Notes under the pieces: model-generated
Seen by the model: only the letters and a program-made list of their open reading frames with translations
The model's database searches: none
Told to the model about the DNA's origin: nothing
NCBI RefSeq assembly: GCF_030811455.1
Contig: NZ_JAUSQU010000001.1
Coordinates: forward strand, 5,890,001 to 5,954,000
Direction of reading: 5' to 3'
Length of the DNA stretch: 64,000 nucleotides
Source: Streptosporangium lutulentum
Lineage (GTDB): Bacteria > Actinomycetota > Actinomycetes > Streptosporangiales > Streptosporangiaceae
Part shown: piece after piece, positions 2,985-42,027 of the stretch
How the letters are laid out: each line of letters opens with the position of its first letter
Position numbering within the stretch: the stretch's first letter is position 1
Translations under genes and position numbers: made by a program

Positions 2985-3425
2985 GTGGAAGGCGAATTCA
3001 AGCCGACAGAGGCGCTCCGGCGGATCGACGAGATCGACCGCCGCGCGCGGCGACCGGCGCGGACGGCCGGATGGATCTTCGTGATCGTGGGGCTGGGCAC
3101 CACGCTGTACTGGCCGGCCATGTCCTTCGGCCCGATGTGGGCACAGGTGACGGCGGGGGTGGGCTGGGTGGCGCTCACGGTCGCGAGCACCTTCTACCTG
3201 GGCGCCATGAAGGTCCAGGACCGCGAGGTCGCCTGGGTCAACAACCCGACCTCTCCGGTGAGCATCGCCTACGTGGTCTCCGTCCTGGTCACCTTCGTCT
3301 TCGGGATGTTCCTCCGTCCCGAGGATCCGAGTGGCGCCTGGATCACGGCGCTGATCGCGCTGGCGGTGCTCTCCGGCCTGCCCGCGCTCTACGGCGGCTG
3401 GCGGATCCTGAGGGCGAGCCGATGA
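2985..3425 (+). CDS. four-helix membrane protein of unknown function
   Basis: A 146-residue integral membrane protein: a short charged N-terminus (EALRRIDEIDRRARRPAR) followed by four hydrophobic segments at about residues 28-48, 54-74, 92-110 and 118-138. No catalytic motif. The GTG start at 2985 is preferred because GGAGGAGG lies 4 bases before it; an in-frame ATG at 2967 has only GAGAAG. The stop overlaps the start of the winged-helix regulator gene (ATGA at 3422), and an ABC transporter follows, so it is probably a partner or sensor of that exporter operon. Function unknown. Confidence 0.75.
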   Translation: MEGEFKPTEALRRIDEIDRRARRPARTAGWIFVIVGLGTTLYWPAMSFGPMWAQVTAGVGWVALTVASTFYLGAMKVQDREVAWVNNPTSPVSIAYVVSVLVTFVFGMFLRPEDPSGAWITALIALAVLSGLPALYGGWRILRASR

Positions 3426-3745
3426 GCGAGGGCGGCTCGCATCCTCGGCACGCCCTGGACGACGTCATCCACGCCCCGGTCCGCCTGTCGATCATGGCTG
3501 CCCTGTCGGCCACGGAGAAGGCGGAGTTCCGTTTCCTGCGCGACACGATCGAGGTCAGCGACTCCCTGCTCTCCAAGCACATCATCACCCTGGAGGAGGC
3601 CGGCTACGTCCACGTGGAGAAGGCCTTCGTCGGTAAGCGCCCGCGCACCTGGCTGGCACTCACCGAGGAGGGGCGTCAGGCTTTCCAGGAGTACGTCTCC
3701 GTGCTGAGACGGCTTACCGAAGGATCCCCCCATGATCGAAATTAA
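3422..3745 (+). CDS. winged-helix transcriptional regulator
   Basis: A 107-residue protein consisting of one winged-helix domain (PF13601/MarR-ArsR-like). It opens with LDDVIHAPVRLSIMAALS, has a helix-turn-helix at FRFLRDTIEVSDSLLSKHIITLEEAGYV and a wing at KRPRTWLALTEEGRQAF. It overlaps the membrane protein gene by 4 bases upstream and the ABC ATPase gene by 14 bases downstream, so translation is coupled. It probably regulates this exporter operon; the ligand is unknown. Confidence 0.85.
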   Translation: MSEGGSHPRHALDDVIHAPVRLSIMAALSATEKAEFRFLRDTIEVSDSLLSKHIITLEEAGYVHVEKAFVGKRPRTWLALTEEGRQAFQEYVSVLRRLTEGSPHDRN

Positions 3746-4625
3746 CGACCTGCACAAACGCTACGGCGACAAGACCGCCCTGGACGGGGTCACGTTCTCC
3801 GTGAAACCGGGCGAGATGTTCGGCTTCGTCGGCGCCAACGGTGCCGGGAAGACCACCACGATGCGAATCCTGATGGGAGTGCTGACCGCCGACTCCGGGT
3901 CGGTGCTCCGGGACGGCCGGCCGCTGACGTTCGAGGCCCGGCGCAGGTTCGGTTACATGCCGGAGGAGCGCGGCCTCTACCAGAAGATGAAGGTCGTCGA
4001 GCAGATCGAGTACTTCGGCCGGCTCAACGGCCTGGGCTCGGGCGACGCCAGGCGGGCGACCGACGAGCTGCTGGCGCGGCTCTCGCTCACCGAGCGCCGC
4101 AACGACACGGTGGACGCGCTCTCCCTGGGCAACCAGCAACGCGTGCAGCTCGCGGTCGCCCTGGTGCACGACCCCGAGGTGCTCGTCCTGGACGAGCCCT
4201 TCTCCGGCCTGGACCCGCTCGCCGTCGACGCGCTGGCCGACGTGCTCGCCGAACGGTGCCGCTCCGGCGTTCCCGTGCTCTTCTCCAGCCACCAGCTTGA
4301 TCTGGTGGAACGGCTGTGCCACTCGGTCGGCATCGTCTCCGCCGGCCGCATGGTGGCCAGCGGCACGGTCGAGGACCTACGGGACAGGGAGGGCCGAGGC
4401 CGGCTCAGGGTGGTCGTCCGCGACGCGCCCGCCGGCTGGACCGCGGACCTTCCGGGAGACGTCACCGAGAACGGCGACGAAGTCCTCGTCACCGGCGTGG
4501 AGGGCGACGACCAGGAAATCCTCCGCCTCGCCGTCAAGGCGGGAAGGGTCGAGCACTTCGGCTGGCAGCGGCCCACACTCACCGAGATCTTCAGAGGAGC
4601 CGTGGCGTCAACGACCCCGGTCTGA
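3732..4625 (+). CDS. ABC transporter ATPase (ABC-2 exporter)
   Basis: A 297-residue nucleotide-binding subunit. Walker A is GANGAGKTT (about residue 34), signature LSLGNQQRVQLA (an LSxGxQQR variant), Walker B VLVLDEPFSGLDPLA, H-loop SSHQLDLVE, then a C-terminal extension of about 80 residues like the DUF4162 tail of NatA/DrrA-type exporters. Its permease is encoded at 6300. The two genes must once have been neighbours, because an IscB element now occupies the gap. Starts at ATG 3732 inside the end of the regulator gene. Substrate unknown (sodium, antibiotic or lipid are all seen in the family). Confidence 0.92.
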   Translation: MIEINDLHKRYGDKTALDGVTFSVKPGEMFGFVGANGAGKTTTMRILMGVLTADSGSVLRDGRPLTFEARRRFGYMPEERGLYQKMKVVEQIEYFGRLNGLGSGDARRATDELLARLSLTERRNDTVDALSLGNQQRVQLAVALVHDPEVLVLDEPFSGLDPLAVDALADVLAERCRSGVPVLFSSHQLDLVERLCHSVGIVSAGRMVASGTVEDLRDREGRGRLRVVVRDAPAGWTADLPGDVTENGDEVLVTGVEGDDQEILRLAVKAGRVEHFGWQRPTLTEIFRGAVASTTPV

Positions 4626-4659
4626 AGGCCAGGGCTTGAGGTGCAGTGATGCGCTTAAA

Positions 4660-4945
4660 GCCCCACGTTGACCAGCCTTAGTCATCACGTTATGGAGGTG
4701 TGACCAGATGGCTACGTTGAACACACGCCAGCAGACCGACTCCGGGGTGCTTCCTCAGCCCCGGACCCTCGAATCCACGTCAGCAGACATCCCCGAGGGT
4801 GGGGACGAAACGGGACGTAGACGCCGTAAGGCAACGGGTGTTCGACATGGGCGAGGGGAGATCGGTCAGGCCGCACCACCTGACCGGCGTCACCCCAAGG
4901 GCTCTTCGGTGTCCGAGGGAGCGAACCGTGAGGTTCACCCGGCCG
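4660..4945 (+). ncRNA. omega RNA (HEARO) of the IscB element
   Basis: The region before and across the IscB start can fold extensively. There is a long-range stem ACCCTCG (4765-4771) with CGAGGGT (4794-4800), a perfect 8-bp hairpin 4863-4870/4879-4886, and a terminal hairpin GAACC-GTGA-GGTTC (4923-4936) lying inside the 5' end of the coding sequence. In characterised IscB systems the omega RNA is encoded immediately upstream of and overlapping the nuclease start, with the guide at its 5' end copied from the left flank. The match here is by position and pairing; no covariance search was possible. The 5' end is uncertain by tens of bases. Confidence 0.7.
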
Positions 4946-6303
4946 TGTTCGTCCTGGATGCGTATGGCCAACCGCTCGACCCGTGCCACCCGGCCCGTGC
5001 TCGCCGTCTTCTGGCGGCGGGGCGCGCAGTGGTGGCCCGGCACACCCCGTTCGTCATCCGGCTGCGCGACCGCGCCGCCGCCAACTCCACCATGCAGGGC
5101 GCCCAGGTCGGCATCGACCCCGGCTCCCGGCACACCGGCATCGCCGTGTTCGCCGAACGCGACGCAAACCGTACCGGCTTGTACAGCATCCAGCTCGACC
5201 ACCGGGGCGGGGCAATCCGCGACAAGCTCACCGTCCGATCGCAGTACCGGCGTCGGCGTCGCAGTAAGAACCTGCGTTACCGGGCACCCCGATTCCTCAA
5301 TCGGACGAAGCCTAAAGGGTGGCTCGCGCCGTCCCTGAAACACCGTGTGGACACCACCATGTCGTGGGTATCGCGGCTCACTCGATGGGCGCCCATCACG
5401 GCCGTCCACGTCGAGAAGGTCGCGTTCGACACCCACACCCTGTCGGCCGGTCGGCCGCTCGAAGGAGTGGAATACCAACAGGGCACCTTGTACGGGTATG
5501 AGGCCCGCGAATATTTGCTGGCCAAGTGGAGCCGTAAATGCGCGTACTGCGGCGCCACCGACACCCCGTTGAACATCGACCACATCCACCCGCGTTCCCG
5601 GGGCGGCTCCGACCGCATCAGTAATCTGTGTGTGGCGTGCATCGGCTGTAACCAGGCGAAGAACGCCACCTCGGTGGAGGTATTCCTGGCTGACCGGCCG
5701 AAGGTGCTGGCTCGGGTCCTGGCTCAGGCGAAGACTCCCCTACGGGACGCTGCCGCGGTGAACTCGACCCGGTGGACGCTGTGGTGGGCACTGACCGGCA
5801 CCGGCCTGTCCGTCGCCACGTCGTCGGGTGGGCGCACAAAGTGGAACCGATCCCGCACCGGTGCCCCGAAAGCGCACACATTGGACGCGCTGCACGTCGG
5901 TGACCTGGACACCGTCAGCGCCTGGCCGCACACGGTGCTGGTCGTTACAGCGACCGGGCGCGGAACCTACGCTCGCACCCGAACCGACAAGTACGGCTTC
6001 CCGCGCCTTGCGCTGCCCCGCACCAAGACCATTCGGGGCTTCCAAACCGGCGACCTGGTCCGGGCCATCGTCCCCTCCGGCAAGAAAGCCGGGGTTCACA
6101 CGGGCCGGGTCGCGATTCGTTCCACCGGCAGCTTCAACATCCGCACCCGGAACGGTCTCGTACAGGGCATTCACCACCGCCACGTCGGCCTACTTCAACG
6201 AGCCGACGGCTACGGCTACGCCACCCATCCAGAGACGCGGCACTGTGCCGCGTTTCCTCCCGGCTCTGAAGAACCGGGTTTCCACACTGGAGGCAATCGA
6301 TGA
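4909..6303 (+). CDS. iscB: IscB-type RNA-guided HNH/RuvC endonuclease
   Basis: IscB, the ancestor-like relative of Cas9. From the GTG at 4909 the protein is 464 residues. In order: an N-terminal RRXRR/PLMP-like segment (PLDPCHPARARRLLAAGRA), RuvC-I GIDPGSRHTG (Asp70), an Arg-rich bridge helix (RRRRR, 114-118), RuvC-II VHVEKVAF (Glu169), and an HNH domain with CAYC (C211, C214), NIDHIHP (D224, H225), SNLCVACIGCN (C244, C247, N248). RuvC-III is KAHTLDALH (H323, D326). All catalytic residues are present, so an active nickase/nuclease is plausible. The frame is open back to an ATG at 4708, but those 67 codons lie in the predicted omega RNA, encode no known domain and are rich in R/G/P. The stop TGA overlaps the start of the permease gene (ATGA at 6300), and the last 25 or so residues read through the element's right-end hairpin. 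Confidence 0.92.
   Translation: MSEGANREVHPAVFVLDAYGQPLDPCHPARARRLLAAGRAVVARHTPFVIRLRDRAAANSTMQGAQVGIDPGSRHTGIAVFAERDANRTGLYSIQLDHRGGAIRDKLTVRSQYRRRRRSKNLRYRAPRFLNRTKPKGWLAPSLKHRVDTTMSWVSRLTRWAPITAVHVEKVAFDTHTLSAGRPLEGVEYQQGTLYGYEAREYLLAKWSRKCAYCGATDTPLNIDHIHPRSRGGSDRISNLCVACIGCNQAKNATSVEVFLADRPKVLARVLAQAKTPLRDAAAVNSTRWTLWWALTGTGLSVATSSGGRTKWNRSRTGAPKAHTLDALHVGDLDTVSAWPHTVLVVTATGRGTYARTRTDKYGFPRLALPRTKTIRGFQTGDLVRAIVPSGKKAGVHTGRVAIRSTGSFNIRTRNGLVQGIHHRHVGLLQRADGYGYATHPETRHCAAFPPGSEEPGFHTGGNR
6259..6278 (+). repeat. right-end hairpin of the IscB element
   Basis: CCCGG (6259-6263) pairs with CCGGG (6274-6278), with further TC/GA pairing inside the loop. The surrounding pattern TTTCCTCC...GGGTTTCC is the form seen at right ends of IS200/IS605-family elements. 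The hairpin is also coding for the IscB C-terminus. Confidence 0.6.
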
Positions 6304-7448
6304 ACAGTCTGTGGCTGGTCGCGCGGCGGGAGATCGTCACGCGCGGCCGTACGAAAGCCTTTGTCATCGGCCTCGTGGTGAGCGCCGCGCTGGTCGCCGC
6401 GCTCGCTTTTCTGCCCCAGCTCTTCGCCGGGCCCGATTCCTACACGGTGGGGATCACCGGGTCGCAGTCGCTGCGACCCGCGCTCACCGAGACGGCGAAG
6501 GACGTCGAGATCACCGTCAGGGAGTTCCCCGACGAGGCCGCCGCGAGCAAGGCGGTGACCGCCGGAGACGTGGACGCCGCCGTGGTGGCCGACAGCAAGG
6601 TGCTCGCCGACGGCGAGGTCGACCGGGAGCTCGGCCTGCTGCTGGAGAACGCGCACCAGGCCGCCCAGGTCCAGAGACAACTCGCCGAGGCGGGCCTCGA
6701 CCCCGCCAAGGTGACCCAGGCGATGCGGGTCACCCCTCTGGAGCAGGTCTCGGTCGGGACGGACACCCGCTATTCGGGCGTGCGAACCGCCCTCGCGTCG
6801 CTTCTGGTCATGGTGCTGTTCTTCCTGATCATCTACTCCTCCATGTATGTCGCCATGGGAGTGGTCGAGGAGAAGGGGAGCCGCATCGTCGAGATCCTGC
6901 TGACCTCGATCCGCCCCTGGCAGTTGCTCGGCGGCAAGATCGTGGGCCTGGGCGCGCTCGCGCTGATCAACCTCGTCGTGGTCATCGTGGCAGGCCTCGG
7001 CGCCGCCGCGGCGACCGGCCTCTCCGCCGACCTGCCCCCGGGCATGACGGGGATCGTGATCAGCACTCTGTTCTGGTTCCTCCTCGGCTACGGGTTCTTC
7101 GCCGCGATGGCGGCGGCGCTGGGCTCGCTGGTGTCCCGGCAGGAGGATGTGAGCAGCGTCCTCACCCCGATGACGATGATCATGATGGCCACCTACCTGG
7201 TCGCCTACTACGCGGCCTTCGATCCCAGCGGCCCGGTGGCCCGCATCCTGTCGCTGGTGCCGCCGTTCTCCTCGATGGTCATGCCGGTCCGGATGGCCGG
7301 CGGCGAGGTGGCCGCCTGGGAGATCGCCCTGGCGGCGGTCCTGATGCTCCTGGCGACCGTGGGCACCCTCGTTCTCGGGGCTCGCATCTACCAGCGCGCG
7401 GTCCTGCGCACGGGCGCCCGCGTCAAGCTCTCCGAGGTCGTGCGCTGA
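6300..7448 (+). CDS. ABC-2 type exporter permease (NatB-like)
   Basis: A 382-residue permease. N-terminal helix at about residues 20-42, a roughly 120-residue extracytoplasmic domain (ITGSQSLRPALTETAKDVEITV onward), then five or six helices (LLVMVLFFLIIYSSMYVAMG; GLGALALINLVVVIVAGLG; VISTLFWFLLGYGFFAAMAA and so on). The core carries VEEKGSRIVEILLTSIRPWQLLGGKIVG, the motif of the ABC-2 NatB/YhaP group. Partner of the ATPase at 3732. SD GGAGG (6289-6293) is 6 bases before the ATG and lies at the junction with the IscB element. Translation is probably coupled to iscB through the ATGA overlap. A host-to-element promoter is not obvious. Confidence 0.9.
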   Translation: MNSLWLVARREIVTRGRTKAFVIGLVVSAALVAALAFLPQLFAGPDSYTVGITGSQSLRPALTETAKDVEITVREFPDEAAASKAVTAGDVDAAVVADSKVLADGEVDRELGLLLENAHQAAQVQRQLAEAGLDPAKVTQAMRVTPLEQVSVGTDTRYSGVRTALASLLVMVLFFLIIYSSMYVAMGVVEEKGSRIVEILLTSIRPWQLLGGKIVGLGALALINLVVVIVAGLGAAAATGLSADLPPGMTGIVISTLFWFLLGYGFFAAMAAALGSLVSRQEDVSSVLTPMTMIMMATYLVAYYAAFDPSGPVARILSLVPPFSSMVMPVRMAGGEVAAWEIALAAVLMLLATVGTLVLGARIYQRAVLRTGARVKLSEVVR

Positions 7449-7484: not shown

Positions 7485-7515
7485 TTGACATCCTCCCCGG
7501 CCTTGCAACCGGATG
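7485..7515 (-). mobile_element. relic end of an IS200/IS605-type element
   Basis: Read on the minus strand this gives CCGGTTGCAAGGCCGGGG followed by AGGATGTCAAG. The tail GGGGAGGATGTCAA after a GC hairpin is a frequent right-end sequence of TnpB-bearing IS200/IS605 elements. No TnpB or TnpA coding sequence is attached. It is therefore either a relic or a stand-alone hairpin element; recognition is from memory of the family's end pattern. Confidence 0.5.
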
Positions 7516-7519
7516 CCGA

Positions 7520-7547
7520 CGGGTCGCGCGCCGTGTCGCGCGACCCG
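7520..7547 (+). terminator. strong hairpin after the exporter operon
   Basis: Perfect 11-bp stem CGGGTCGCGCG/CGCGCGACCCG with a 6-base loop, 70 bases after the permease stop. No U-tract, as is usual for actinobacterial terminators. It also precedes nucS, so it separates the two units. Confidence 0.65.
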
Positions 7548-7632
7548 GCGCGCGCCGGGGAACCGGGAACCCGCCACCCCGGCTGGACGGATCCTGGAGA
7601 GCCGGGTCCCGTCCGGCCGGTAGGGTTCGCTC

Positions 7633-8292
7633 ATGCGTCTGGTCATCGCGCGGTGCAGCGTGGATTACGTGGGAAAGCTCACTGCTCATCTTCCGATGGC
7701 GCCCCGGCTCATCCTCATAAAAGCCGACAGCAGCGTCTCGATCCACGCCGACGATCGAGCGTTCAAGCCTCTCAACTGGATGAACCCGCCGTGCAAACTC
7801 CGCGAGGAGGAGGGCGTCTGGACGGTGACCCACGGCAAGACCGGTGAGAAGCTCGTCCTCACCATGGAGGAGATCCTCCACGACTCCAGCCACGAGCTGG
7901 GCGTGGACCCCGGCCTCATCAAGGACGGCGTCGAGGCCCACCTGCAGGAGCTGCTGGCCGAGCACATCACCACGCTGGGCGCGGGCTGGACGCTGATCCG
8001 CCGCGAATACATGACGGCGATCGGCCCGGTCGACATCCTCTGCCGCGACCACACGGGCGCGACCGTGGCCGTGGAGCTCAAGCGGCGCGGTGACATCGAC
8101 GGCGTCGAACAGCTCACCCGCTACCTGGAGCTCCTCAACCGCGACCCCCTGCTGGCCCCGGTGAAGGGCGTCTTCGCCGCCCAGGAGATCAAGCCGCAGG
8201 CGCGCGTGCTCGCCGCCGACCGGGGCATCGGCTGCGTCACCCTCGACTACGACAAGCTACGGGGCATCGAGCGCAACGACACCCTGTTCTGA
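7633..8292 (+). CDS. nucS: mismatch-specific endonuclease NucS/EndoMS
   Basis: NucS of 219 residues (family length about 220-230), the key enzyme of the non-canonical mismatch repair pathway of Actinomycetota and many archaea. It cleaves both strands at G-T, G-G and T-T mismatches together with the sliding clamp. The N-terminal DNA-binding half runs from [16 protein letters not shown] to about residue 105. The C-terminal RecB-like nuclease carries GPVDILCRD (catalytic Asp) and [10 protein letters not shown] (the ExK), followed by QLTRYLELL. The C-terminal GIERNDTLF is a candidate clamp-binding tail. No SD precedes the ATG; TAGGGT lies 6 bases before it, which suggests a leaderless transcript. 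Single gene flanked by hairpins on both sides. Confidence 0.95.
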
Positions 8293-41771: not shown

Positions 41772-42027
41772 GTCTTAGATCCTCTCCAAAGCGCGGTCGC
41801 CGGGTCGCCACTGTCTCTCGCCTGTAAGGCTTGCGCGCTGAGCACACCAGGGTGCGCGCGGGCGGGAACCGGAACCGCTGCGGTTCGGCTACCAGTGTGC
41901 CAGATCCTCCAACCATCCCAGGCCACAAGACATTCCCCGGCGGGGGCGGCCGTGTCCGCGGGCGGGTCACAGGGGCGGTCTCGGGCCCCGATTCGCGAAC
42001 CTCGTCTTTACCTGTTCTTCATCTTCC

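Follow-up and report, generated by a model that had tools for sequence, protein, structure and literature searches.

An IscB/omega RNA element directly before a permease start codon in Streptosporangium lutulentum, and the apparent habit of its relatives of sitting at gene starts

IscB proteins are RNA-guided DNA-cutting enzymes and the ancestors of Cas9. Among their relatives, IsrB lacks the HNH domain, and TnpB has a RuvC domain alone, its guide coming from the opposite end; to our knowledge, the motifs of TnpB are not start codons. Weinberg in 2009 is said to have reported the insertion of HEARO elements before ATGA or GTGA and is not known to have drawn the link to start codons. For IsrB, the accessible portions of PMC9581776 give NTGA, NTG or NTGG as target-adjacent motifs. 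For TnpB, the part of PMC11870625 available to us describes a TAM that is also the insertion motif, with the element-free allele being cut and the element retained.

The element described here shares with the OMEGA systems (OgeuIscB and the HEARO nucleases) a RuvC-HNH IscB, a HEARO RNA placed 5' of the gene, a start that coincides with that of the RNA model and an NTGA-type motif on its 3' side. Features of the element and its relatives that the literature consulted does not describe for these systems are the location at a host start codon, ends that bring a stop for the upstream gene and, in one group, a terminal Shine-Dalgarno sequence. The NTGA-type motif is also common to IsrB (PMC9581776, in the portions accessible), the HNH domain being the difference. 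With the TnpB of IS200/IS605, a peel-and-paste system with retention directed by the guide, it would share, on the sequence comparisons made here, a guide recorded in the flank, the identity of TAM and insertion motif and the cutting of the element-free allele (for TnpB, PMC11870625, in part). IStrons are likewise transposable units limiting the damage to host genes; they do so, according to the part of PMC4227781 available, by a self-splicing group I intron, whereas our element uses gene borders.

The window, that is, the whole stretch of DNA analysed, comprises 64,000 nt of Streptosporangium lutulentum (GCF_030811455.1, NZ_JAUSQU010000001.1, positions 5,890,001 to 5,954,000). Alignment with empty sites places the IscB/omega RNA (HEARO) element at 4607-6299, between the ATPase and the permease genes of an ABC exporter. 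The features of the region, in window coordinates, are as follows.

3386..3745, + strand: domain-bearing part of the frame of an HTH_34 winged-helix regulator, 5' of the exporter (Pfam PF13601, E 2.9e-30)
3732..4625, + strand: exporter ATPase, native up to 4606, the rest (five codons and the stop) coming from the element (Pfam, empty-site comparison)
4591..4606, + strand: left flank and putative 16-nt guide, doubling as the ATPase gene end (from the junction, guide length assumed)
4607..4866, + strand: omega RNA scaffold, HEARO (Rfam RF02033, 86.0 bits)
4607..4612, + strand: 5' strand of the outer stem, GTCAAC, pairing with GTTGAC at 4667-4672 (HEARO alignment)
4623..4625, + strand: element-borne TGA closing the ATPase frame (sequence)
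4909..6303, + strand: iscB, GTG start, RuvC-HNH nuclease, with its stop TGA (6301-6303) within the host ATGA (NF040563)
6237..6251, + strand: right-end hairpin GCGGCAC/GTGCCGC (sequence)
6256..6283, + strand: terminal right-end hairpin, found again in relatives (sequence comparison)
6289..6293, + strand: Shine-Dalgarno GGAGG among the last element bases, 6 nt 5' of the permease ATG (sequence)
6300..6303, + strand: ATGA, combining the insertion target/TAM with the start codon of the permease and the stop codon of iscB (empty relatives, same position)
6300..7448, + strand: ABC-2 permease (Pfam PF12698, ABC2_membrane_3, E 3.2e-44)

At the left junction, the host flank ...GAGCCGTGGC is followed by the element, GTCAACGACC, with 4607 being both its first base and the first HEARO position. 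At the right junction, the element ...GGAGGCAATCG runs up to its last base, 6299, followed by the host sequence ATGAACAG. Both junctions are exact, and there is no target duplication. An earlier note on this DNA had set the ends at 4649 and 6303, hence a start 42 bases too far to the right and an end that took in the host target ATGA (6300-6303), part of which also serves as the iscB stop codon. We rejected the ATGA as a part of the element, as ATGA or GTGA is found at the same place in element-free relatives at the exporter, hisB and uppS. An exception to this host origin is hom, where the occupied allele reads ATGA and 15 other members of the genus shown have ATGG or GTGG.

The exporter ATPase carries the ABC_tran and DrrA1-3_C domains of Pfam, and its permease finds matches in 37 of 100 genomes, its own included. 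In all of the 29 other loci (L008-L036) the ATPase adjoins the permease, and by reading, ATGA or GTGA lies directly at the gene border in 13 of the 17 loci inspected (L008-L024). The uninterrupted pairs that the earlier note had proposed to look for are present in four relatives of the same genus (L008-L011, all the others with a close orthologue), whose ATPase and permease genes overlap by ATGA or GTGA, and it was their alignment that set the exact ends. Directly downstream of the exporter lies a gene for the mismatch endonuclease NucS (7633-8292; NF002876, 396 bits), and further on the window holds an L31-Actinobacteria ribosomal protein leader on the minus strand (41795-41878; Rfam RF03158, 40.3 bits). 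Just past the permease stop, TTGACATCCTCCCCGG, followed by a GC-rich palindrome, lies at 7485-7560; we take this to resemble a remnant of an IS200/IS605-type end. This is the sole match in the window at up to two mismatches, shuffled sequences averaging 0.07.

The proposal of an intact IscB/omega RNA unit between the two exporter genes is borne out by the protein, the RNA and the empty pairs. The IscB scores 427.8 bits against the curated NCBIfam model NF040563 (guided_IscB, cut-off 175), carries the Pfam domains RRXRR and HNH, and has an open frame without internal stops. Read from the GTG at 4909, it contains every residue named beforehand, D70, E169, H323 and D326 for RuvC and D224/H225 and N248 for HNH, residues that we take to be the catalytic ones. 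When aligned with the chain of HfmIscB, D70, E169 and H225 match identical residues; the TbaIscB chain matches H323/D326 and has other residues at the positions of D70 and H225. The protein does not reach the level of a Cas9 model: NF049971 (Cas9d) gives 38.9 bits against a cut-off of 375, covering the HNH part only. The omega RNA expected 5' of iscB was recovered by the covariance search, in which Rfam HEARO RF02033 matches 4607-4866 over the full model (1-211) with 86.0 bits (gathering score 83, E 5.8e-16 for the window). At the gathering threshold, HEARO was found at 6 of 16 further loci and at none of the six GTAA-type loci among these 16. Altogether, the element is intact and typical of the IscB/HEARO kind.

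In calling both host genes intact, the earlier note was nearly right, the exceptions being the end of the ATPase and the ribosome-binding site of the permease. It sits directly 5' of the ATGA carrying the permease start codon, and its omega RNA starts within the ATPase frame. Since the element begins inside this frame, which stops at the element TGA (4623) after five element codons, the ATPase protein ends in VASTTPV rather than VA. The native purine-rich stretch is left behind on the left flank, and the permease gains a new Shine-Dalgarno sequence, GGAGG (6289), from the right end of the element. Reading on through the hairpins of the right end, the iscB frame reaches its stop in the TGA of the host ATGA; the -4 stop/start overlap is therefore rebuilt, with iscB in the place of the ATPase. 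This rebuilt coupling, together with a co-directional placement 5' of a gene, might suggest a domesticated regulator, in which the omega RNA and IscB would now control the translation of the permease. We find this highly improbable, given that the catalytic residues are intact, that the neighbouring genes vary between copies, and that the exporter site is empty in four same-genus orthologues and thus not conserved there.

Concerning mobility, the statement that there is no transposase is true of the element itself. The genome does encode one Y1 transposase about 4.4 Mb away (Y1_Tnp gene at 1519050-1519412 of contig 1, the window lying at 5.89 Mb). The element has hairpin right ends, and insertion at a tetranucleotide without target duplication is seen at the exporter, hisB and uppS, as in the IS200/IS605 type. 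As no Y1 transposase lies inside, it would be at most a non-autonomous member of this type. The other long copies in the same genome are 72% and 81% identical to it, with further fragments at 64% and 40%, and the former two values indicate that the window copy does not stem from a recent burst in this genome. This divergence and the missing transposase would suit a dead passenger, intact in sequence and yet silent and immobile. We regard such a state as improbable, since the frame is open, the catalytic residues are present and HEARO scores above its gathering threshold, and since IscB above the cut-off occurs in 56 of 341 genomes of the family (own included), beside many different genes.

The earlier note had also suggested that IscB may recognise the empty exporter locus of sister chromosomes or related strains and so promote its own retention. 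When the left and right flanks are joined as in the empty site, the sequence reads the guide followed by ATGA, so that the flank taken as guide and the flank bearing the motif become adjacent there; the occupied locus reads GTCA in the same place. As the motif is present in the empty allele and gone from the occupied one, the former would be a target and the latter would not, a pattern that fits self-retention by IscB. Counted over an assumed guide length, mismatches at the exporter empty site amount to 3/16 in the closest relative and to 4-5 in four others, which speaks against recognition in these five relatives. The proposal of retention is partly supported, by the anatomy of the flanks and the succession of guide and ATGA. 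A closer pair is provided by the hisB element of G003, whose guide has 0/16 mismatches to the empty allele of G009 and 0/15 compared in G005, followed by GTGA. In the genome of the window, a search for the 17-nt guide of the exporter element plus NTGA elsewhere at up to three mismatches gave no site.

The position before a start codon was followed through further copies. The survey pooled 129 loci, 51 from named genomes, 77 from same-family regions and the window locus; eight duplicates were dropped (six by identical flanks, two by hand), leaving 121 copies. The right end was placed in 105 of them, the remaining 16 being cut by a contig end (6) or not placeable (10). Right ends came from a motif rule and from reading by eye, a hairpin search having failed at a large number of loci. 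The tetramers following the right end (92 ATGA, 11 GTGA, 1 ATGC, 1 ATGG) are not independent evidence, because [AG]TGA was a condition of the automatic rule and 39 right ends were settled or checked visually. The left end was missing in 19 of the 105, leaving 86 copies for a strict start test by codon score, the codon model having been trained on the downstream ORFs themselves. By this rule, 64/86 copies adjoin a gene start. Of the other [AG]TGA sites of these flanks, taken as the control, 569/6670 do so (odds ratio 31, p 2e-48); the automatic set alone passes in 51 cases out of 66. A Shine-Dalgarno-like match of at least 4 nt is found in 40/66 left flanks and in 22% of 5671 control sites (p 1.5e-11).

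The downstream ORFs were compared with NCBIfam, 50 of the 54 with at least 100 aa being scanned. A family was matched by 33 of these 50, and all 33 are in register with its N-terminus, residue and model position agreeing to about 40 residues. The first 20 proteins had been picked as recognised, and of the next 30, not so picked, 13 matched; the threshold was E 1e-20 for these later 30 and 1e-10 for the first 20 and the control. In the control, for which 20 sites were drawn from 893 and ten scanned, six ORFs matched, two near the N-terminus and four internally. The families downstream include dnaN, hom, sdaA, smpB, lptA, galE, ruvA, guaB, ispE, pth, hisB and era. The ORF downstream of L058 matches its family from residue 131 only (model 138).

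Some copies do not follow the strict rule. It is failed by 22/86 sites, some of which are true starts (guaB at L148, smpB at L069). By reading, L153 interrupts an aldehyde dehydrogenase-like frame and L152 lies within a gene; very short frames follow the right end at L045, L047, L056, L076, L079, L084, L125, L154, L166, L170 and L195. In 20 annotated plasmid loci, again by reading, the right end is at a CDS start in nine, at NTGA without an annotated start in five and unplaced in six, so that the plasmid copies show the habit less than the chromosomal ones, in which it is strong. A Deinococcus plasmid (L200) has an IscB element between parA-family and parB-family genes. Two pairs, L147/L155 and L131/L132, each represent one orthologous site in two species and their copies are not independent. 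With these exceptions, location at gene starts looks like a habit of the family.

Same-genus empty alleles indicate that insertion was base-exact and without duplication at hisB and uppS. At pgeF in G003 (L129), the junction on the right is exact; between the left end and the start codon, 14 host nt that relatives have are absent. At hom in Streptosporangium subroseum (L122 and L037), the ATGA of the occupied allele differs from the ATGG or GTGG of the 15 relatives displayed; it arose either by mutation beforehand or in the course of insertion.

A passive origin of this distribution would have elements inserting at any NTGA, with intragenic hits purged, start codons surviving and the stop and Shine-Dalgarno sequences of the ends being structural accidents. 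The insertion motif indeed needs only NTGA, and L152 and L153 are two copies that, by our reading, do interrupt genes. In a single 50-kb sample of E. coli, [AG]TGA sites fall at 25 CDS starts, 104 intergenic and 721 intragenic positions, CDS starts thus making up 25/850 of all sites and 25/129 of those outside genes. Purging of intragenic hits alone would then leave about 19% of insertions at starts, against about 74% seen, E. coli being a proxy and some intergenic sites being untranscribed. We consider this explanation possible but rather unlikely.

Another option would be active targeting, where the transposase or an IscB complex favours start sites, for instance through single strands exposed close to translation starts or an upstream purine-rich motif. 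It draws on the size of the start excess (64/86 against 569/6670) and on repeated sites. In one genus, the ispE start is occupied in three genomes by IscB copies whose left ends differ (L157, L165, L179; L165 identified by NCBIfam, the others by matching N-termini), and two copies each sit at the starts of hisB (L127, L160) and murT (L162, L177); these starts are possible insertion hot spots. Nevertheless, outside NTGA nothing more than a diffuse excess of G/A, as at ordinary ribosome-binding sites, is seen in the flanks, and gene-internal insertions exist. We know of no mechanism for active targeting of start sites, which also counts against it, and we judge it improbable.

Upstream of the 86 two-ended copies, the gene is co-directional in 32 (L075 being dubious), on the opposite strand in nine and without a call in 45. 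Overlaps of -4 as the sole target were rejected, such an overlap being found for 13 of the 32 co-directional upstream genes. According to the accessible portions of PMC12548453, -4 and -1 are the commonest spacings of closely placed genes, and among start/stop overlaps NTGA predominates by far.

The ends of the elements may also bear on translation. Within at most six codons, the left end brings a stop in the -4-overlap frame in 86 of 101 copies, and in 30 and 9 in the other frames. Two different left ends stop this same frame, GTAA at once and GTCAAC via TGA or TAA at +16, which argues against a passive accident; in favour of one, the sequence with which the left end begins is set by the outer RNA stem. 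Where the empty site was scored as a -4 overlap (13 copies), 0 to 6 residues are added to the upstream protein. On the right, a Shine-Dalgarno sequence is present in 28 of 31 actinobacterial copies with GTCA left ends (9.4 expected from shuffling) and in 6/33 with GTAA left ends (expected 5.6). GTCA copies outside actinobacteria have it in 1/19 (expected 4.1) and GTTA copies in 0/3, jointly 1/22 (expected 4.9); copies without a placed left end have it in 5/11 (expected 2.2) and 5/8 (expected 1.9), together 10/19 (expected 4.1). A universal right-end Shine-Dalgarno sequence is accordingly rejected; its regularity in one actinobacterial group only is compatible with a passive origin. Of the 105 copies, 15 have an iscB stop that overlaps the host start by -4, and in a further 6 the overlap is -1. 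In L154, L156 and L185, the right-end hairpin is lengthened to a long, near-perfect palindrome (GTTTCCTCC...GGAGGAAAC).

The explanation that we consider probable is that of a non-autonomous IscB element of the IS200/IS605 (ISC) kind, inserted at ATGA, occupying a start-codon niche kept by selection and retained by means of its guide. A Y1 transposase acting in trans would have placed it directly 5' of the ATGA shared by ATPase and permease. The operon transcript would then carry the left flank (the guide), the omega RNA and iscB, as a 5' guide would need transcription from outside, which an operon junction or a gene 5' end could supply. IscB would cut element-free alleles, in which the guide is followed by NTGA, and would be kept from cutting its own locus by the loss of the motif; repair would then restore the element. 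The start-codon site would be a niche maintained by selection, transcribed in the right direction and breaking neither gene, with the element ends presumably stopping the upstream gene and, in one actinobacterial group, equipping the downstream gene with a ribosome-binding site.

A broader reading, for and against which we feel evenly inclined, is that IscB elements are specialists of start codons in operon junctions and 5' gene ends, where the host would transcribe guide, omega RNA and iscB, and that their termini have evolved as translational adaptors. On the left, the adaptor would be the stop in the overlap frame; on the right, a ribosome-binding site or a rebuilt -4 or -1 overlap. Our literature search, whose coverage did not extend to the founding papers, found no link between IscB insertion and start codons and no adaptor-like ends. 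The link is absent from the accessible portions of PMC9755519, PMC13180657, PMC9581776, PMC12548453, PMC11870625 and PMC8987985.

If IscB elements are such specialists, this would explain why the motifs of IscB and IsrB read NTG(A), which corresponds to the start codon of bacteria and to the start/stop overlap met most often, and how a guide lying beyond the left end of its element comes to be transcribed. A start-codon rule, if true, would provide a simple ecological reason for the motif of the ancestors of Cas9, a way for annotators to reach exact IscB ends and guides, and natural guide-target pairs for tests of retention, such as hisB of G003 and G009. It would also make of these elements a case of mobile DNA able to keep operons working without splicing.
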